NCBI RefSeq assembly: GCF_900103985.1
Contig: NZ_FNIE01000009.1
Span: forward strand, 124,001-188,000
DNA: 64,000 nt
Reading direction: 5' to 3'
DNA from: Actinacidiphila guanduensis
GTDB lineage: Bacteria; Actinomycetota; Actinomycetes; Streptomycetales; Streptomycetaceae
In this document: positions 53,194 to 61,899 of the stretch, piece after piece
How the letters are laid out: the number at the start of each line of letters is the position of its first letter
How positions within the stretch are numbered: the stretch's first letter is position 1
Position numbers and translations under genes: made by a program
The notes under the pieces: generated by a model
Database searches by the model: none
What the model was told of the DNA's origin: nothing
The model's input: the letters and a program-made list of their open reading frames with translations, nothing else

Positions 53194-55185
53194 TCAGGTC
53201 TGGCGCTGCGGCTGGTATTCCTCGGCGGTGAGGCCGAAGGTCCAGGCGACGCCCTCCCTGGCGGTAAGGGTGGTGGGCGGCACCCGCAGCCAGTAGGTGC
53301 GGGTGGTGCCGTCCGGCTCCGGCGTGGAGTTGACCACCTCGACCATCACGGTGTCCTCGTCGCCCTGCAGGGCGATCCGCCACAGCACGCCCGTCTCGTC
53401 GCGGTGCTCGGGGACGGCACCGGACTCGGTGAGGTAGCGGTCGTAGCCGTAGTGCTCCAGCATCACCCGGCGCAGCTCGGCGTTCTCCTCGGTGCGGATG
53501 CGTTCGGGGGTCAGCGCGGACAGCTCGCGCAGGAACCCGCCGGGGACGGGCATGCCGCGCCAGGAGTACAGCGCGAAGCCGTCGCGGTAGGCGAGGGCGG
53601 GGCCGTCCGCCCGGTCCAGCCGCCCGGCCTCGTCCCGGTGCAGCTCGACCGGCCGCTCGCAGACGACGGCCACCCGCTCGTACGGCCACCACCACCCGGC
53701 CGCGCGCGCCACCGCGGCCACCCCCTCCAGCGGAGAACCCGGCCCGACCTCGAACGCACTGAGCCACGCGGCATCCTGCTGCCCCTGCACGGCGTCGAGC
53801 AGCAGCACCCTGGCGAGAGCCTGCTTCTTGGGATCGACCCGAGCGGCGGGCGCGGTGGTGGGGGAGCCGGACCCTGCGGGCGGTTCGGGGGCGTCGGCGG
53901 GTGCGGTGGTCACGGAACCGGACCCGGCGGGTGCCTCGGGAGCGCCGGCGGGTGTGGTGGCCACCGGGCCAGCCTCGGCGGTACCGGTTGCGGCGGCCGC
54001 CGTGGCGGCCGTGCGGGGTGCCGTCTCGCCCGGCGCTGCGGGAGCGGCCGACGGGGCCGCGACCCCCTCGAAGCCCGGCAGCATGTCGGCTGCGGGAGCG
54101 CCGGGCACGGCGGCGGGGCTGGCCGGACGCGCGGGCACCTCCGTGGCGGCGAACGCCTCCACCGTGCCGGCGCCTATACGGGCCGTCAGCAGCTGGACGC
54201 CGTCCCAGAGGCGGCCGCCGGTGGACTGCCAGCGGGCGCTCCAGCCGGCCGGACCCAACTCGGCGTGCAGCCGCGCGCGTTCGGCCGCCCACGGGCCGCT
54301 GCGTACCTCCTCGCGCACGTTGCGGCCACGCCGCTCCGCCGACTCCTCACCGGCCAGCAGCCGTATCGCGGCCAGCGGCGATTCCGCCCAAACGATCCGC
54401 TCCGGCTCGGCGAGCCCGGCGAGCCGGTACGCCAGCCGCACCCCCGCCTCGGCGGCCCCCCGATCCGCCGCCGCCGTCTCGGCCCCCACCCGCCGCCACT
54501 CCGCCACGGCGCCCACGCCGAGCGACCCGCTGCCCGCGCCTTCGTTCGGGTCGCCTCCTGCGCCGTCGGCTGTGGCGTCGGGTTCGTTCGCCGTCCGGCT
54601 GTCCGAGCTCTCGCCGGGGTTGCCTCCTGTGTCGTTGGCTGTGGTGTTGCCGGGTTCGTCCGCCGGCCCGCTGCCCGACTCGTTGCCCGAGTCCTCGGCG
54701 GGGGTGTCGGCCGTGGTGTTGCCGGGGTCGTCCGCCGACCCGCTGCCTGAGCCTTCGTCGGGGTTGCCAGGCTCGCTGTTGCTCGGTGCGTCCGCCGGTA
54801 CCCGGTCCGGGGTGCCCTCCTTACTGCTCGCCGTGCCGGCGGCCGGGCCGCCGATCGCGCCTTCCGTCGTGACCGTGCCCTCGTCCACCTGCGTCACCGA
54901 AGTCTCCACTGCCGTCCCGCTCCCGATCTCCACGCCCGTCCCGACCTTCCCGTTCCCCGCTGGTGCCCGCGCGCCCTGCCTCGGGACGCGCGCGGGCCGC
55001 CGTCGTCCCTGTCCTTGTCCCGTCGTCCCGCCTTTGTGCGGCCGGGCGCGAGCCTTGACCGGCGCCCGCACGGCCCGCCGGTCGCCGCGCCGGCGGAAAA
55101 CCGTCCCCGCGCCCTCCGCCGTGACCGTGCCCTCGTCCACCTGGGCCACCGACGTCTCCACTGCCGTCCCGCTCCCGACCTCCAC
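53194..55185 (-). CDS. DUF6745 domain protein with repeat-expanded N-terminus
   Basis: Up to 663 residues. The conserved part, as I recall the DUF6745 family downstream of rpoC in streptomycetes, starts about residue 230 (AVAEWRRVGAETAAADRGAAEAGVRLAYRLAGLAEPERIVWAESPLAAI) and includes WWPYERVAVVCERPVELHRDEAGRLDRADGPALAYRDGFALYSWRGMPVPGGFL and the end RTYWLRVPPTTLTAREGVAWTFGLTAEEY. No catalytic motif is recognised. Residues 1-230 are low-complexity repeats, including a 97 bp duplicated block with its own GTG; the true start may be GTG 54933 or later. A second Ala/Pro/Thr linker splits the domain (about residues 370-450). Confidence 0.8.
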   Translation of the reverse strand: MEVGSGTAVETSVAQVDEGTVTAEGAGTVFRRRGDRRAVRAPVKARARPHKGGTTGQGQGRRRPARVPRQGARAPAGNGKVGTGVEIGSGTAVETSVTQVDEGTVTTEGAIGGPAAGTASSKEGTPDRVPADAPSNSEPGNPDEGSGSGSADDPGNTTADTPAEDSGNESGSGPADEPGNTTANDTGGNPGESSDSRTANEPDATADGAGGDPNEGAGSGSLGVGAVAEWRRVGAETAAADRGAAEAGVRLAYRLAGLAEPERIVWAESPLAAIRLLAGEESAERRGRNVREEVRSGPWAAERARLHAELGPAGWSARWQSTGGRLWDGVQLLTARIGAGTVEAFAATEVPARPASPAAVPGAPAADMLPGFEGVAAPSAAPAAPGETAPRTAATAAAATGTAEAGPVATTPAGAPEAPAGSGSVTTAPADAPEPPAGSGSPTTAPAARVDPKKQALARVLLLDAVQGQQDAAWLSAFEVGPGSPLEGVAAVARAAGWWWPYERVAVVCERPVELHRDEAGRLDRADGPALAYRDGFALYSWRGMPVPGGFLRELSALTPERIRTEENAELRRVMLEHYGYDRYLTESGAVPEHRDETGVLWRIALQGDEDTVMVEVVNSTPEPDGTTRTYWLRVPPTTLTAREGVAWTFGLTAEEYQPQRQT
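54560..54800 (-). repeat. Degenerate repeats in the DUF6745 gene's N-terminal part
   Basis: Imperfect units coding for variants of SGSGPADEPGNTTAND / GNESGSGPADEP. They lie between the duplicated start-like block and the conserved domain. Confidence 0.7.
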
Positions 55186-55519: not shown

Positions 55520-55846
55520 CTAATCGGCGACTATGCGGACCGAGCCCGGGACGTATTCGCGCTGGCGGATCACGCGGTACCAGCCCTTGGGGAGGGGGAT
55601 GGGGCCGTGTTCCTCGTGGACGACGCGGGCGCCGTCCGGGACGTGGAGCAGGAGCGGGCCGAGCGGGCCCGCCTCGCGCATGAGGTGGCCCGGGCCCACC
55701 ACCGCGTGGGCGTGGCCGGTCACCTCGCCGAGCGCCAGCACCATCCGCCCCCGCCCGTCCCGCGGCTCGCGCGGCAGCTCCTCGTGGCCCCGCGGCAGCG
55801 CGGCCTCCTCGATCGGCACGATCAGCACATCGCCCTGCCGGTACAC
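55520..55846 (-). CDS. Small conserved hypothetical protein
   Basis: 108 residues from GTG 55844-55846 (GGAAGGGAGC upstream): VYRQGDVLIVPIEEAALPRGHEELPREPRDGRGRMVLALGEVTGHAHAVVGPGHLMRE ... VHEEHGPIPLPKGWYRVIRQREYVPGSVRIVAD. The frame is well conserved in style, with a GHAH motif and a beta-rich pattern; no family name recalled. It sits between the DUF6745 gene (same strand) and the STM4015 gene (divergent, 184 bases between starts), suggesting a link with this neighbourhood. Confidence 0.85.
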   Translation of the reverse strand: MYRQGDVLIVPIEEAALPRGHEELPREPRDGRGRMVLALGEVTGHAHAVVGPGHLMREAGPLGPLLLHVPDGARVVHEEHGPIPLPKGWYRVIRQREYVPGSVRIVAD

Positions 55847-56030: not shown

Positions 56031-56993
56031 ATGACCTTGACGCACGACCACCTCACGGAGTACGGCGGGCTGCCGGTCGTCGAATGGTTCTCCGCGAAGG
56101 ACGAGGAGAAGAACGGCCCGCCCACCGCGGGCGGGGTCGCCTGGCGGATCAGCGCGGACGCGTACGAGAGCGACGAGACCTGGGCCGGGGCGTTCGCCCG
56201 GTTCGCCGCGGCGGTCGACCTCACCCAGGTCGAGGCGCTGATCGTGGGCGCCTGGCCGGACATGTACGAGTCCGGGCCCGACGAGGTCGTCGAGACCCTG
56301 CTCGGCGCCCGCGAGCACCTCACCTCGCTGCGCTCGCTCTTCGTCGCGGACGTGGTGTTCGAGCAGTGCGAGATCTCCTGGATCGTGCAGGGCGACCTCA
56401 CCCCGCTGCTCGCCGCCTTCCCCGGGCTGGAGCGCTTCGGCCTCCGCGGCGGCAACAGCCTGGTCTTCCCGCCGGTCCGCCACGAGAAGCTGCGCGAACT
56501 CGTCGTGCAGAGCGGTGGGATACCCGCCGAGGCGGTGCGCGGGATCGCCGCGAGCGACTTCCCCGCGCTGACCACGCTCGACCTGTGGCTCGGCACCTCG
56601 GACTACGGCGGCGACTGCGACGTGGCCGACCTCGCCCCCTTCCTGGCCGGCACCCGGCTGCCCGCGCTGCGCCACCTCGCCCTGCACAACAGCGAGATCC
56701 AGGACGAGGTGGCCGCCGCGGTCGCCGCCGCGCCCGTCGTCGCCCGGCTGGAGACGCTGGACCTGTCGATGGGCGTGCTCACCGACGAGGGCGCGGCCGC
56801 GCTGCTCGGCGGCCAGCCGCTCACCCACCTCACCTCGCTCGACCTGCACCACAACTACATCGGCGCGGAGGTCGCCGAGCGACTGCGCGAGGCCCTGGAG
56901 CCCGCCGGCGTGGCCCTCGACCTCGACCGCGATGACGCGGAGGAGGACAACGGCGACGGCACCGTCTGGCGGTACGTGGCGGTCGGCGAGTAG
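56031..56993 (+). CDS. STM4015 family leucine-rich-repeat protein
   Basis: 320 residues. It begins MTLTHDHLTEYGGLPVVEWFSAKDEEKNGPPTAGGVAWRISADAYESDETWAGAFARFAAAVDLTQVEALIVGAW, then leucine-rich repeats: FPALTTLDLWLG, LPALRHLALHNSEIQDEVAAAV, VARLETLDLSMGVLTDEGAAALL, LTHLTSLDLHHNYIGAEVAERLREAL. Matches the STM4015 family named after Salmonella STM4015; function unknown. No signal peptide. First gene of the STM4015-4014-4013-4012-4011 set, separated from the rest by 293 bases of repeats. An LRR protein here may act as scaffold, inhibitor or substrate-recognition subunit (inference). Confidence 0.9.
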   Translation: MTLTHDHLTEYGGLPVVEWFSAKDEEKNGPPTAGGVAWRISADAYESDETWAGAFARFAAAVDLTQVEALIVGAWPDMYESGPDEVVETLLGAREHLTSLRSLFVADVVFEQCEISWIVQGDLTPLLAAFPGLERFGLRGGNSLVFPPVRHEKLRELVVQSGGIPAEAVRGIAASDFPALTTLDLWLGTSDYGGDCDVADLAPFLAGTRLPALRHLALHNSEIQDEVAAAVAAAPVVARLETLDLSMGVLTDEGAAALLGGQPLTHLTSLDLHHNYIGAEVAERLREALEPAGVALDLDRDDAEEDNGDGTVWRYVAVGE

Positions 56994-57286
56994 CCGGACG
57001 CCGCCCGGACAGGGGCGGGGGAGCGGCGGCGTACGGCGGGCACGCGTCGCGCAGGGCGGGCAGGTGCGGGCACGACGGTGAGCCGCAGGGCGGGCGTCGG
57101 GCCCGCACGGCAGGTGCGCGCCGGGCGGGCCGCGGGCGAACGGGGTACGGCGGCGCCGATCCGACCGGAAGCCGCACGGCGAGCACGGCAGGCACGGCGG
57201 GCACGGCAAGCACGGGCCCAGCAGAAAGCACGCGCAGCGCACCGCACCGGGTGGGCCCGGCGGCAGGGGACGAGGGAGGGGACGGC
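56994..57286. other. Intergenic with GCACGG repeats
   Basis: 293 bases between the STM4015 and STM4014 genes. No gene. About 57175-57220 has loose 9-10 bp units (GCACGGCAG, GCACGGCGG, GCACGGCAA, GCACGGGCC); earlier GCGGGC-rich repeats occur at 57040-57130. The ribosome site GGGAGGGG of the next gene is at 57274-57281. Confidence 0.55.
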
Positions 57287-58429
57287 ATGGCGAGCGCAGG
57301 GGCGTACGGGGGGCGGGAACCGGCGCTCGCCGTGGTCGGGAACCCGGAGAACCGGCGGGTGCGGCTGTTCACCGAGGCGGCGGTCGCGGCGGGGTTCGCC
57401 GCGCCCCGCGTCGTACCGTGGCTGGACGTCCTGCGCGCGGGCGGCGCCGAGTTCGGGCCGCACGAGGTGGTCCGGCTGGACTCGCCGGGCGAGCACCCCG
57501 AGGTGGACCGGCTGCTGCGCGGGACGGACGACCCGACCCGGGTGGAGGGCGGTGCCCGCTGGTACGCGCGCTTCACCGCGGCCGTCGGCTCGCTGCGCGG
57601 GGGAGTGCGGCTGGACGATCCGGCGGAGCTGGCCGTCCTGTTCGACAAGCGGGCCTGCCACCAGGTCCTGGCCCGGGCCGGTGTGCCCGTGCCGCAGTCC
57701 CCGACGAGCGGCGGCGCGGCCCCCTTGCGCGGCTGGGCCGACCTGCGCGCGCTGATGCGCGAGCACCGCATGCCGCGCGCCTTCGTCAAACCGGCCCACG
57801 GCTCCTCGGCTTCCGGCGTCATCGCGCTGGAGACCGCGAGCGGCGGCCGGCTGCGGGCGACCACCTCGGTGGAGACCGCGGGCGGACGGCTCTTCAACTC
57901 GCTGCGGGTGCGCCGGATCACCGACGAGGGCGAGGCCGCCGCGCTGGTGGACGCCCTCGCGCCGGACGGCCTGCACCTCGAACGGTGGCTGCCCAAGGCG
58001 TCGTTGGGCGGCCGTACCGCCGACCTGCGGGTGCTGGTCGTCGCGGGCCGGGCCACCCACGTGGTGGTGCGCACCAGCCGGTGGCCGATGACCAACCTTC
58101 ATCTGGGCGGTGCCCGGGGCGACTTGGCCGCCGCCATGGCCGCGGCCGGCCCGGCCTGGCCGGAGGCGCTGCGGATCTGCGAGCAGGCCGCGGCCTGCTT
58201 TCCCGGCACCCTCGCGGTCGGCGTGGACCTGCTGCCGGCCACCGGCTGGCGGCACTTCGCCGTCGCCGAGGTGAACGCCTTCGGCGACCTGCTGCCGCGG
58301 CTCACCGGCCTGCCGGGCAGCCCGGCGGAGGGACTTGACACCTATCAGGCCCAACTCGCCGCGCTCGCCGGGCACATCGCGACCGCGGCCCCGTACCCAC
58401 CGTCGAGGGAGCACCGTGCGGCACGTTGA
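57287..58429 (+). CDS. STM4014 family ATP-grasp protein
   Basis: 380 residues. N-terminal nucleotide-like fold LAVVGNPENRRVRLFTEAAVAAGF, then ATP-grasp: FDKRACHQVLARAGVPVPQSP, the lysine and glycine-rich loop AFVKPAHGSSASGVIALET (K about 168), TADLRVLVVAG, and the metal-binding end VAEVNAFGDLLP (E about 328, N about 330). ATP-grasp enzymes join a carboxylate to an amine or thiol via acyl phosphate, so this is the predicted ligase of the cluster. ATG 57287 with GGGAGGGG. Its last codons overlap the STM4013 GTG by 14 bases. Confidence 0.92.
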   Translation: MASAGAYGGREPALAVVGNPENRRVRLFTEAAVAAGFAAPRVVPWLDVLRAGGAEFGPHEVVRLDSPGEHPEVDRLLRGTDDPTRVEGGARWYARFTAAVGSLRGGVRLDDPAELAVLFDKRACHQVLARAGVPVPQSPTSGGAAPLRGWADLRALMREHRMPRAFVKPAHGSSASGVIALETASGGRLRATTSVETAGGRLFNSLRVRRITDEGEAAALVDALAPDGLHLERWLPKASLGGRTADLRVLVVAGRATHVVVRTSRWPMTNLHLGGARGDLAAAMAAAGPAWPEALRICEQAAACFPGTLAVGVDLLPATGWRHFAVAEVNAFGDLLPRLTGLPGSPAEGLDTYQAQLAALAGHIATAAPYPPSREHRAAR

Positions 58430-59516
58430 CCCGGCCGGGACCGGCCGAGCAGGCGCGCAGGCGCAGCCGGACGACCACCCCCTGCCCACCCCCGGCACGC
58501 TTCCCGACACCTCCGTCACGGACCCCGCCGTGAACCACCACGTGAACCCCCGCACCGACGACCTCGCCGTGAATCCCGGCACCGACCCCGCCGTGAACCC
58601 GGGCGCGAACCCCGGCATGAATCCCGAGAGGTCGTCCGGCACGAACTCCGGGGTGGGCCGCGCCGTGAACCCCGCCCTGAACCCCGCCGTGGACCCCGAC
58701 ATGAACGAGGTGGTCGGCCGCGACGACCTGCTCCTCGTCACCCTCGACACGCTGCGGTACGACGTGGCCGCCGAACTCGCCGCGCAGGGGCGGCTGCCGA
58801 ACCTCGCGCGGCACCTGCCCGGCGGCGTCTGGGAGCGGCGGCACGCCCCCGGCAGCTTCACCTACGCCTCCCACCAGGCGATGTTCGCCGGCTTCCTGCC
58901 CACCCCGGCCACGCCCGGGCCGCACCCGCGGCTGTTCGCCGCCCGCTTCGCGGGCAGCGAGAGCACCGCGGCGGGCACCTGGGTCTTCGACACCCCCGAC
59001 CTCGTCGGCGGCTTGGCGAAGGCCGGCTACCACACGGCCTGCATCGGCGGCGTCGGCTTCTTCAACCGGCGCGGCGCCCTCGGCAGCGTGCTGCCCGGAC
59101 TCTTCGCCGAGAGCCACTGGGAGCCCGGCTTCGGCGTCACCTCGCCCACCTCCTTCGAGGAGCAGGTGCGCCGGGCCGAGCAGGTGGTGGCCGCGCTCCC
59201 CGCCGGGCGGCGGCTCTTCCTCTTCGTCAACGTCTCCGCGCTCCACCAGCCCAACTGGTTCCACCTGCCCGGCGCCACCAAGGAGGCCGGCGACAGCCGC
59301 GAGACCCACGCGGCCGCCCTGGAGTACGTCGACCGCCACATCGGCCGGCTGTTCGCGGCCGCGAGCGCCCGGCGCCGCTGCTTCGCCGTCGTCTGCTCCG
59401 ACCACGGCACGGCCTACGGCGACGACGGCTTCACCGGCCACCGCATCGGCCACGAGGCGGTGTGGACCGTGCCCTACGCCCACTTCTTCCTGGACCACGG
59501 GGAGCCCACCACATGA
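58416..59516 (+). CDS. STM4013 family sulfatase/phosphatase-like hydrolase
   Basis: 366 residues from GTG 58416. Alkaline-phosphatase superfamily core: metal Asp in LLVTLDTLRYDVAAELA (about D111), nucleophile region PGSFTYASHQAMFAGFLP (Thr/Ser, no sulfatase Cys-x-Pro-x-Arg), then CSDHGTAYGDDG (D329, H330) and GHRIGHEAVWTVPYA. Family members are about 270 aa and begin near MNEVVGRDDLLLVTLD (ATG 58701). The 95 residues before it are an Asn-Pro-rich degenerate repeat (VNPGTDPAVNPGANPGMNP ...). GTG 58416 has a good ribosome site; ATG 58701 has none. Last four genes of the cluster overlap. Confidence 0.9.
   Translation: MRHVDPAGTGRAGAQAQPDDHPLPTPGTLPDTSVTDPAVNHHVNPRTDDLAVNPGTDPAVNPGANPGMNPERSSGTNSGVGRAVNPALNPAVDPDMNEVVGRDDLLLVTLDTLRYDVAAELAAQGRLPNLARHLPGGVWERRHAPGSFTYASHQAMFAGFLPTPATPGPHPRLFAARFAGSESTAAGTWVFDTPDLVGGLAKAGYHTACIGGVGFFNRRGALGSVLPGLFAESHWEPGFGVTSPTSFEEQVRRAEQVVAALPAGRRLFLFVNVSALHQPNWFHLPGATKEAGDSRETHAAALEYVDRHIGRLFAAASARRRCFAVVCSDHGTAYGDDGFTGHRIGHEAVWTVPYAHFFLDHGEPTT
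58490..58700 (+). repeat. Asn-Pro-coding degenerate repeat in STM4013
   Basis: Imperfect 12-18 bp units with GTGAACCCC / ATGAACCCC / GTGAATCCC cores. They lie between the coupled start codon and the conserved domain; each unit offers a GTG or ATG, but none with a ribosome site. Confidence 0.85.
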
Positions 59517-60934
59517 CCACCGCACCCCTCCCCATACCGACGCCTCCGGCGGCGCCGACGCCCGCCGCGGCTCCTCGACCGGCCCCGGCGGTGCTTCCGT
59601 CGGACCCCACCGCCGCCGTCCGCCCGTACCAGGACTACGTCTACGCCTATCCGCACAAGACCGCCTACCGCCCGCTGCCCGGCCGCCCCGCGCTGCGGGA
59701 GATCTGGCGGGCCGAGCCCAAGGACGCCCTCGCGCTCTACCTGCACATCCCCTTCTGCGAGGTGCGCTGCGGCTTCTGCAACCTCTTCACCCGCGTCGGC
59801 GCCCCCGGCGATCTCACCACCCGCTACCTCGACGCCCTGGACCGGCAGGCCGCCGCCGTCCGCGACGCGCTCGGCGACGAGCAGCCGGTCCGCTTCGCCG
59901 CGGCCGCCTTCGGCGGCGGCACCCCGACCTTCCTGGAAGCGGCCGAGTTGGAGCGGCTGTGCGACATCGCCGAGCACCGCATGGGCGCCCCGCTCGGCAC
60001 CGTGCCGCTCTCCGTGGAGGCGTCGCCGGCCACCGCCACCGCCGACCGGCTCGCTGTCCTCGCCGCCCGCGGGGCCACCCGGATCAGCCTGGGCGTGCAG
60101 AGCTTCGCCGAGGACGAGGCCCGCGCGGCGGTGCGCCCGCAGCGCCGGGCCGACGTCGAGGCCGCGCTCGGCCGCATCCGCGCGACCGGCGTCCCGGTGC
60201 TCAACATCGACCTCATCTACGGCATCGACGGCCAGACCCCGGCGAGTTGGCGCGCCTCCCTGGACGCCGCGCTCGCCTGGGAGCCGGAGGAGCTGTACCT
60301 GTACCCGCTCTACGTGCGCCCGCTGACCGGGCTGTCCGGCCGGACCGCGGTGGACGACCCGGCCTGGGACGCCCAGCGCCTGGCCCTGTACCGGCAGGGC
60401 CGCGACCACCTGCTGGAGCGCGGCTACACGCAGACCTCGATGCGGATGTTCCGCCGCGCCGGCGCCGCCGCCCAGGGCCCGGACGACCACGCCTGCCAGA
60501 CCGACGGCATGATCGGCCTCGGCTGCGGCGCCCGCTCCTACACCGCGGGCCTGCACTACTCCTTCGACTACGCGGTCGGCATGCCGCAGGTGCGGGCGAT
60601 CATCGACGACTACACCGCGACCCGGGACTTCTCCACCGCCCGGCACGGCCGCCGGATCGACGCGGACGAGGCCCGCAGGCGGCACCTGCTGCAGTCCCTG
60701 CTCCAGGCCGAGGGGCTGGCCACCGCCGAGTACCGGGCCCGCTTCGGCACCGAGCCGCAGGCCGACTTCCCCGCCGCGCTCGCCGCCTTCGCCGCCCGCG
60801 GCTGGCTGGACGAGGCGGCGGCCCCGGACCGGCTGCGGCTCGGACCGGAGGGCCTCGCGCACTCCGACGCGGTCGGCCCGGCCCTGTTCTCGGCGAAGGT
60901 CCGCGCCGACATGGCCGCCTACGAGACCCGGTGA
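59513..60934 (+). CDS. STM4012 family radical SAM protein (HemN/coproporphyrinogen-oxidase-like)
   Basis: 473 residues. Radical SAM CX3CX2C at C82, C86, C89 (PFCEVRCGFCNLF), GGGTPTFLEAAELERLCDI (SAM-binding GGE-like), VEASPATATADRLAVLAARGATRISLGVQSF, LNIDLIYGIDGQTPASWRASLDAAL, and a C-terminal HemW/HemN-like domain (LGCGARSYTAGLHYSFDYAVG; winged region after RRRHLLQSLLQAEGL). It resembles HemN/HemW but belongs to the STM4012 family. The first about 40 residues are Pro/Ala-rich. ATGA overlap with the STM4013 stop. Chemistry unknown. Confidence 0.93.
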   Translation: MTTAPLPIPTPPAAPTPAAAPRPAPAVLPSDPTAAVRPYQDYVYAYPHKTAYRPLPGRPALREIWRAEPKDALALYLHIPFCEVRCGFCNLFTRVGAPGDLTTRYLDALDRQAAAVRDALGDEQPVRFAAAAFGGGTPTFLEAAELERLCDIAEHRMGAPLGTVPLSVEASPATATADRLAVLAARGATRISLGVQSFAEDEARAAVRPQRRADVEAALGRIRATGVPVLNIDLIYGIDGQTPASWRASLDAALAWEPEELYLYPLYVRPLTGLSGRTAVDDPAWDAQRLALYRQGRDHLLERGYTQTSMRMFRRAGAAAQGPDDHACQTDGMIGLGCGARSYTAGLHYSFDYAVGMPQVRAIIDDYTATRDFSTARHGRRIDADEARRRHLLQSLLQAEGLATAEYRARFGTEPQADFPAALAAFAARGWLDEAAAPDRLRLGPEGLAHSDAVGPALFSAKVRADMAAYETR

Positions 60935-61899
60935 CGGCGGTGGACCTCACACTGCTCTACCGCGGCCCGCTCGCCTCCTGCGACTACGACTGCCCCTACT
61001 GCCCGTTCGCCAAGCGCCGCGACACCCCCGCCCAACTGCGCGCCGACCGGGCCGCCCTGGAGCGGTTCACCGACTGGGCGGCCGCGCAGCAGGACTCCCT
61101 GGCGGTGCTCTTCACGCCCTGGGGCGAGGGGCTGACCCGGTCCTGGTACCGGGAGGCGATCGTGCGGCTGTCCCATATGCCGCACGTGCGCCGGGTGGCG
61201 ATCCAGACCAACCTCGGCGGCCGCACCTCCTGGCTCGCCGCGGCCGACCGGGACACAGCGGCCCTGTGGTGCACCTTCCACCCGGGCCAGACCCCGTACG
61301 AGCGGTTCCTGGCCCGCACCCGCGAACTGGACGCGATGGGGGTGCGCTTCAGCGTCGGCGTCGTCGGGCTGCCCGAACACCTGGACGCCGCCCGCCGGCT
61401 GCGCGCCGACCTGCCCGAGCGGCACTACCTGTGGGTGAACGCGGCCGAGGGCCGCACCTACACCGACGCAGAGGCCGCGCCCTGGACCGACCTCGACCCG
61501 CTCTTCCCCTTCAGCCGCCACCCGCACCGCTCGGCGGGCCTGCCCTGCCGCACCGGCGAGTCGGTGGTCTCGGTCGACGGCGAGGGCACGGTGCGCCGCT
61601 GCCACTTCGTCCGCGAGCCCCTGGGCAACCTCTACGACGGCTCCTACCGCGCGGCCCTGACCCCGCGCCCCTGCCCGCTCGCGGTGTGCGACTGCCACAT
61701 CGGCTACGTCCACCTGGAGTCGCTGCCGCTCTACGACGTCTTCGCCGGCGGCGTCCTCGAACGCGTCCCCGCCACCCTGCCGGCCACCCTGCCCTCCGTA
61801 GTGCCCGGTGTGGTGTCCGGCGCGGTCCCCGGCACGCGCGCGCCGCTGCCGCTCACGGCGGTGCCCGGGAGGCTGTCCGGTACGGTGTCCGAGGGGTGA
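60931..61899 (+). CDS. STM4011 family radical SAM protein
   Basis: 322 residues. N-terminal radical SAM motif LLYRGPLASCDYDCPYCPFAKRR (C17, C21, C24), LFTPWGEGLTRSWYREAIVRLS, AIQTNLGG. After the TIM-barrel part, the cysteine pattern CRTGESVVSVDGEGTVRRCHF ... RPCPLAVCDCHIGYVHLE suggests an auxiliary iron-sulfur cluster of SPASM/twitch type. GTG overlaps the STM4012 stop (GTGA). After YDVFAGGVLERVP, where family members usually end, there is a Pro/Val/Gly/Thr repeat tail of about 45 residues. Predicted partner of STM4012 in a two-radical pathway. Confidence 0.92.
   Translation: MTAVDLTLLYRGPLASCDYDCPYCPFAKRRDTPAQLRADRAALERFTDWAAAQQDSLAVLFTPWGEGLTRSWYREAIVRLSHMPHVRRVAIQTNLGGRTSWLAAADRDTAALWCTFHPGQTPYERFLARTRELDAMGVRFSVGVVGLPEHLDAARRLRADLPERHYLWVNAAEGRTYTDAEAAPWTDLDPLFPFSRHPHRSAGLPCRTGESVVSVDGEGTVRRCHFVREPLGNLYDGSYRAALTPRPCPLAVCDCHIGYVHLESLPLYDVFAGGVLERVPATLPATLPSVVPGVVSGAVPGTRAPLPLTAVPGRLSGTVSEG
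61770..61896 (+). repeat. Degenerate repeat tail of the STM4011 gene
   Basis: Units such as ACCCTGCCGGCC / ACCCTGCCCTCC and CCCGGTGTGGTGTCCGGCGCGGTCCCCGGC code for PATLPATLP and VPGVVSGAVPGT; they end at the stop codon. Confidence 0.75.

Follow-up and report, generated by a model that had tools for sequence, protein, structure and literature searches.

Gene content and distribution of the STM4011-STM4015 cluster

The 64,000-nucleotide stretch of Actinacidiphila guanduensis DNA analyzed here (contig NZ_FNIE01000009.1, positions 124,001 to 188,000 of the forward strand, referred to below as the window) carries between positions 56,031 and 61,899 a cluster of five genes that encode a leucine-rich repeat (LRR) protein, an ATP-grasp ligase, a hydrolase of the alkaline phosphatase superfamily and two radical S-adenosylmethionine (SAM) enzymes. 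An earlier, sequence-only reading of this DNA had assigned the genes to the STM4011-STM4015 families and had treated the first of them as an LRR protein and nothing more, which likely overlooked a role of STM4015 as the carrier or substrate of the pathway; as a whole that interpretation is partly supported. The family assignments held, with every protein exceeding its curated NCBIfam cut-off (STM4015, 389 bits against 275; STM4014, 445 against 175; STM4013, 423 against 250; STM4012, 634 against 380; STM4011, 408 against 200), and the overlaps described among genes 2 to 5 were recovered as 14, 4 and 4 bases. The features of the cluster are as follows.

56031..56993, plus strand: STM4015 family LRR protein, 320 aa, proposed carrier or substrate (NF038076)
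56928..56969, plus strand: variable-length acidic linker ahead of the STM4015 tail (charge, entropy, gaps)
56970..56990, plus strand: C-terminal heptapeptide RYVAVGE with terminal Glu320, proposed attachment site (tail conservation)
57287..58429, plus strand: STM4014 family ATP-grasp ligase, LysX/ArgX/RimK-like (NF038074; PDB profile matches; AlphaFold2 model)
58416..59516, plus strand: STM4013 family alkaline-phosphatase-superfamily hydrolase with a predicted Thr nucleophile, nucleotide pyrophosphatase/phosphodiesterase (NPP)-like (NF038075; T54, DHG)
59513..60934, plus strand: STM4012 family HemN-like radical SAM enzyme (NF006067)
60931..61899, plus strand: STM4011 family radical SAM enzyme with five auxiliary Cys and a SPASM/Twitch-like C-terminus (NF038073)

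The proposal that a ligase, two radical SAM enzymes and an alkaline-phosphatase-fold enzyme make up a single coupled, uncharacterised pathway was borne out by co-occurrence and gene order, both of which are extremely strong. The order 4015-4014-4013-4012-4011 was found in 92 of the 96 loci with room for the cluster, the four exceptions being a Bacteroides locus (L017), a fragmented reading frame (L058) and two incomplete loci (L060 and L108). The first of these, on a Bacteroides finegoldii plasmid (L017 6363-10530), has neither STM4012 nor the greater part of STM4013; its STM4015 bears a WGR domain at the N-terminus, and its STM4011 is fused to a HAD hydrolase. Among 81 Streptomycetaceae genomes, 37 had STM4015, and the 34 with an STM4014 above cut-off all belonged to these 37 (Fisher 1e-19), which is not the chance co-occurrence that the sequence-only reading had named as a refutation. 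STM4014 was never encountered without STM4015, and the two genes neighbour each other; STM4011 was present in 33 of the 34 STM4014-bearing genomes, with a frameshifted copy in G306.

Across the phylum the distribution is patchy (STM4015 in 6 of 296 genomes), and the cluster is widespread: at least 433 relatives of STM4011 were confirmed in a scan of GTDB genomes, the closest named relatives among the matches listed being from Streptomyces species, with up to 84% identity. Thirteen plasmid records from five phyla carried STM4011, and the same 13 carried STM4014, in Streptomyces, Embleya, Nonomuraea, Deinococcus, Methylobacterium, Paenibacillus, Salmonella and Bacteroides. Two Salmonella plasmid records (L018 and L025, 148-178 kb) contain the segment hemN-glnGLA-typA-STM4011-4015, which is usually chromosomal, and are either excised chromosome segments or assembly artefacts. 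A DNA-level search of 5,426 E. coli genomes with a Salmonella query returned no cluster. A phage origin of the enzymes was rejected, since viral contigs contained no relative of STM4011.

The STM4014 ligase and the C-terminus of STM4015

The catalytic motifs of all four enzymes had been described as intact, and alignments confirmed that the motif residues are invariant over phyla. In STM4014 the canonical ATP-grasp residues DK107-108, K155, E219, DxR233-235, R249, TN256-257, D301 and N317 are invariant and E315 is nearly so (numbering of alignment A2). When a profile of 17 family members was compared with 177,635 PDB sequences, LysX ranked first (4e-6; top entries 1uc8, 1uc9 and 3vpd) and RimK next (3e-5). 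The AlphaFold2 model of STM4014 (mean predicted local distance difference test score, pLDDT, 91.7) retrieved LysX at rank 1 with Foldseek, and its first three ranks with VIA-align were LysX (Z 23.0), ArgX-LysW (Z 22.2) and LysX/ArgX with LysW-gamma-AAA (Z 22.0), followed by RimK. By profile and predicted fold, then, LysX/ArgX and RimK stand closest to STM4014 among solved structures. We have not filed STM4014 as a LysX, because TIGR00768 (RimK/LysX) scores it at 24.5 bits, under the curated cut-off of 143.4, and because the GSWGR motif is absent from alignment A2.

The relatives indicated by this analysis act on protein C-termini. LysX and ArgX ligate an amino acid to the gamma-carboxyl group of the C-terminal Glu of LysW, which lies in an acidic EDWGE tail (PMC10433800; reviewed in PMC9303977) that is read by the GSWGR motif, and a haloarchaeon became an arginine auxotroph once the C-terminal Glu of its LysW was changed (PMC10433800). 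RimK, according to work cited in PMC8939145, lengthens the C-terminus of ribosomal protein S6.

STM4015 consists of an LRR domain, an acidic linker of differing length and the sequence RYVAV[GSA]E at the extreme C-terminus. Of 156 distinct STM4015 sequences from five phyla, tandem and distant stray copies included, 154 terminate in Glu; the two that do not are a broken reading frame or assembly and a stray copy that has diverged. R314 and E320 have a column entropy of 0.00, compared with 1.3-3.1 bits in the linker, which is gapped, and residues -24 to -8 have a mean net charge of about -6 across 154 sequences. Elsewhere the C-termini read ..MYTE (Salmonella), ..MITE (Bacteroides), ..LTE (Paenibacillus) and ..ALGE (Deinococcus), and in the Salmonella and Bacteroides tails only the final Glu and the preceding small residue are retained. 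Since the ligase is of a type that acts on a protein C-terminus and its partner always ends in Glu, the STM4015 tail is likely, by sequence and by analogy, to be the acceptor of STM4014.

The AlphaFold2 model of STM4015 (pLDDT 91.8) has an LRR body scored mostly at 93-98 and final two 10-residue blocks at 74 and 64. Its closest solved fold is 2RA8 (Q64V53_BACFR, Bacteroides fragilis), a homologue solved without an assigned function, with an E-value of 1.8e-18 and 32% identity over 245 alignment columns only; the homologue from Bacteroides finegoldii has the WGR domain mentioned above, whereas STM4015 of the window has none. Concave LRR strand positions are more conserved (1.01 bits) than convex helices (1.45 bits), and for this reason the LRR face probably binds one common partner rather than diverse targets.

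Between one and six tandem STM4015 copies accompany a single enzyme set, and every copy keeps the tail, so the copies behave as expected of substrates. In three loci (L138, L139 and L088) four to six paralogues stand in tandem before one enzyme set, and some of these genomes have stray copies elsewhere. The spacer between STM4015 and STM4014 in the window is about 290 bp long and holds GC-rich repeats, among them a 9/18-bp repeat at 57174-57215; in most relatives such a spacer is missing and the two genes abut or overlap.

The remaining enzymes and a proposed carrier pathway

In STM4013, D16, T54 and DHG234-236 are invariant (counting from the ATG at 58701), and T54, which sits in SFTYASH, is placed in the nucleophile region by alignment with NPP enzymes, its nearest solved sequences (7n1s and 2gsn). 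In sulfatases the corresponding position is a Cys or Ser that becomes formylglycine. Because an invariant Thr replaces this precursor residue, and the C/S-x-P-x-R pattern is not present, STM4013 is predicted to be phosphatase/NPP-like and not a classical sulfatase, a refinement of the sulfatase/phosphatase fold named by the sequence-only reading. A 12/24-bp tandem repeat at 58522-58706 encodes a low-complexity N-terminal extension of STM4013 (..NPAVNPGTDPAVNPG..), in which an in-frame, GTG-containing unit is repeated ahead of the conserved DMNEVVG.

Both radical SAM enzymes have an invariant cluster motif, C82-x3-C86-x2-C89 in STM4012 and C17-x3-C21-x2-C24 in STM4011. The nearest solved structures to STM4012 are HemN (1olt) and NocN. 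STM4011 has five further invariant cysteines (C206, C224, C248, C253 and C255); its C-terminal part matches SkfB (6efn), a SPASM-type peptide-modifying enzyme, and Pfam SPASM matches the Bacteroides homologue weakly, so that by sequence this region can be assigned as SPASM/Twitch-like. Radical SAM enzymes of the SPASM type usually act on peptides or proteins.

These observations suggest a scheme in which STM4015 would be a carrier or substrate rather than an accessory: its LRR domain would be a platform recognized by the enzymes, and its flexible acidic C-terminal arm would present the invariant Glu. STM4014 would use ATP to activate a carboxylate of this terminal Glu and couple to it a building block with an amine group, probably an amino acid; STM4011 and STM4012 could then perform radical chemistry on the tethered group, and STM4013 could remove or transfer a phospho group. 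In the end state the group might be set free, as happens in amino-group carrier protein (AmCP) pathways, or remain on the LRR protein as a modification, as with RimK. Release is favored by the resemblance to LysW; in favor of a lasting modification are the tandem copies, as many as six to one enzyme set, and the cluster flanks, in which neither a peptidase nor an exporter is conserved. The data show the gene content, its order and co-occurrence, the tail with its terminal Glu and the kinship of the ligase. The acceptor role of the tail, the order of the steps and the nature of the attached group are what we infer here, and we put the core of the scheme, a carrier or substrate loaded at its Glu by STM4014 and modified by the other three enzymes, at about an even chance. 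More tentatively, the cluster may represent a new type of protein-tethered biosynthesis, present in at least five phyla, in which a LysX-like ligase loads the Glu of an LRR carrier and the product is built there by an NPP-like enzyme together with the two radical SAM enzymes.

Several observations weigh against this scheme. The lead of LysX over D-Ala ligases, glutathione synthetase and PPIP5K (Z about 20) is only about 2-3 Z units, and STM4014 is 13-23% identical to LysX, ArgX and RimK. The LysW sequence family (TIGR01206) was not matched in the genome, and STM4015, an LRR protein, is unlike LysW. Three genomes (G301, G317 and G350) have an STM4015 ending in Glu and neither an STM4014 above cut-off nor STM4011, so the tail may act without the enzymes. 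In these three orphans, compared for signs of a relaxed tail, the second-last residue is E, D or T (n=3), and D occurs also alongside enzymes. A conserved terminus is not unique to STM4015, since the last residue of a protein of about 109 aa encoded just upstream is a near-invariant Asp, continuous in that case with the domain. Finally, no conserved release peptidase was found in the cluster flanks, as noted above for peptidases and exporters.

The orphan STM4015 copies that retain the tail could instead indicate that it is unmodified, serving as a docking peptide by which an LRR scaffold assembles the enzymes while STM4014 ligates two free small molecules, and the greater conservation of the concave LRR surface would fit a scaffold. 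We consider this unlikely, though the strongest of the alternatives: across all phyla only the last residue is fixed, with nothing ever beyond it, which argues for chemistry at the terminus rather than a binding motif, and the ligases nearest to STM4014 act on protein C-termini. The tail might also be the core, and the LRR domain the leader, of a ribosomally synthesized and post-translationally modified peptide (RiPP) that the ATP-grasp and radical enzymes cross-link before it is cleaved off. ATP-grasp enzymes and SPASM radical SAM enzymes are frequent together in RiPP loci (PMC8939145), there are several precursor copies for each enzyme set, and the tail contains Tyr/Phe, Ser/Thr and Glu. Such a precursor would have to be a folded protein of about 300 aa, however, with a core that differs between phyla at nearly every position save the last Glu (RYVAVSE compared with YMNAMYTE), and neither a conserved protease or exporter nor a short dedicated precursor, the hallmarks of graspetide-like RiPPs, was found near the cluster; we judge a RiPP origin improbable.

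The sequence-only reading had looked for a sixth partner, a precursor or carrier outside the five genes, and here the evidence points to STM4015 itself, which is likely to be the carrier or substrate. The idea that a short precursor gene had been missed was rejected: no conserved open reading frame (ORF) of at least 90 aa was shared by more than roughly a third of the cluster flanks, none that was short and conserved was seen downstream of STM4011, and the overlaps between genes leave no space for one within the cluster. An accessory system akin to defense or immunity, with the LRR protein as sensor or effector and the enzymes producing a signal or ligand, could be read from the patchy distribution, the plasmid carriage, the tandem LRR paralogues and the HipA or Fic/RhuM genes that neighbour the cluster on some plasmids. 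PADLOC models gave one weak match only, to STM4012, on which ground a known defense system was rejected, and beyond the partner genes described below no gene family, defense genes included, was a neighbour in more than roughly a third of loci; we think such a system very unlikely. Least probable by far is a role in heme metabolism with STM4012 as a HemN/HemW orthologue, the alternative named by the sequence-only reading. HemN is the nearest solved relative of STM4012, and HemW, HutW and HemN models match it below cut-off, but the genome has a separate HemW above cut-off (231.7 bits, against 131.6 for STM4012). HNxxYW is the heme motif of HemW, and CX3CX2CXC is the HemN motif; the HemW of this genome has HNELYW, whereas STM4012 has neither HNxxYW nor the fourth HemN Cys, and the assignment to HemN/HemW was rejected.

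Flanking genes and comparison with known systems

Just upstream of the cluster on the minus strand lies a frequent pair of partner genes that the earlier reading overlooked.

55520..55846, minus strand: partner protein of about 109 aa with a GTG start, GExTGHxH and HEEH (adjacency, alignment A6, phrog_27831)
53194..54520, minus strand: DUF6745 protein, start approximate, with an Ala/Pro-rich insert (PF20530, 380 bits)

Of 96 loci, 76 have the two genes beside the cluster: in 71 the pair is upstream and divergent, in four (three Deinococcus loci among them) it is downstream, and in Methylobacterium it is upstream and reads in the direction of the cluster. DUF6745 co-occurs with STM4015 in 30 genomes (Fisher 3e-12). 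The GExTGHxH and HEEH motifs of the smaller protein are invariant in alignment A6 and could be metal ligands. The pair is a separate, independent mobile module that is often joined to the cluster, since it is also found without the cluster and in Microcystis phage Ma-LMM01, where gp174-gp175 (L167 3968-5499) are a DUF6745 protein and an approximately 109-aa protein side by side. Lone STM4013-like genes were seen a few kb from a DUF6745 gene at L156 15970-16791 and L162 15889-16788, with no other cluster genes in the fetched stretch. In the window, a 51-bp repeat (53844-53981) lies inside the Ala/Pro-rich insert of the DUF6745 gene.

The cluster is flanked by rpoC (end 53101) and rpsL (start 62158), a neighbourhood of core RNA-polymerase and ribosomal genes. 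Because rpsL adjoins the cluster at no other fetched locus, the insertion site looks private to the source lineage, within the reach of those loci. A HAD phosphatase gene adjoins the cluster in Salmonella, is fused to STM4011 in Bacteroides and is near the cluster in one Deinococcus; it was not found beyond these and was rejected as a universal partner. The locus shares with Salmonella LT2, the source of the NCBIfam family names, all five members above curated cut-offs and an identical gene order, and it differs in its position between rpoC and rpsL and in its DUF6745 and approximately 109-aa genes, a pair that Salmonella loci do not have.

The statement that no product is established agrees with the literature searched, which gives no published function for the cluster and names the STM4011-STM4015 genes only as hypothetical or table entries. 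That literature, in which few subscription papers were covered, contained no system combining LRR, ATP-grasp and radical SAM proteins, no carrier-tail proposal, no link between STM4014 and LysX and no mechanism for the cluster. Since no paper found proposes a carrier tail or ties STM4014 to LysX, we count the cluster as a new variation on carrier-protein or C-terminal ligation systems, with its biochemistry pending. With a likely attachment Glu on STM4015 and a LysX/RimK-type STM4014, a radical SAM pathway that had been an orphan becomes accessible to an experiment with two proteins.

Among known systems, RimK and ribosomal protein S6 offer an ATP-grasp enzyme of the same subgroup whose target is the C-terminal end of a folded protein; S6 and STM4015 are unrelated, and RimK needs no radical SAM enzymes. 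In the pearlin pathways for 3-thiaglutamate and 3-thiahomoleucine, a carrier receives an amino acid at its C-terminus, where the residue is then modified, once by radical SAM chemistry (PMC9303977), a loading and in-place modification like that proposed here, but the loader is an aminoacyl-tRNA-dependent PEARL rather than an ATP-grasp enzyme, and the carrier is a short peptide. The LysX/ArgX-LysW systems of the lysine, arginine and vazabitide AmCP pathways likewise place an ATP-grasp enzyme of the same subgroup beside a protein whose acidic tail closes with an invariant Glu and co-encode further enzymes. LysW is a Zn protein of about 54 aa, in contrast to the LRR carrier of about 300 aa proposed here, and its tail reads EDWGE where that of STM4015 reads RYVAV[GSA]E; AmCP pathways use a kinase, a reductase and an aminotransferase where this cluster has two radical SAM enzymes, and the cluster has no release peptidase. 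If the scheme is true, AmCP-like carrier-protein biosynthesis would also take in radical chemistry and a carrier that is large and folded.

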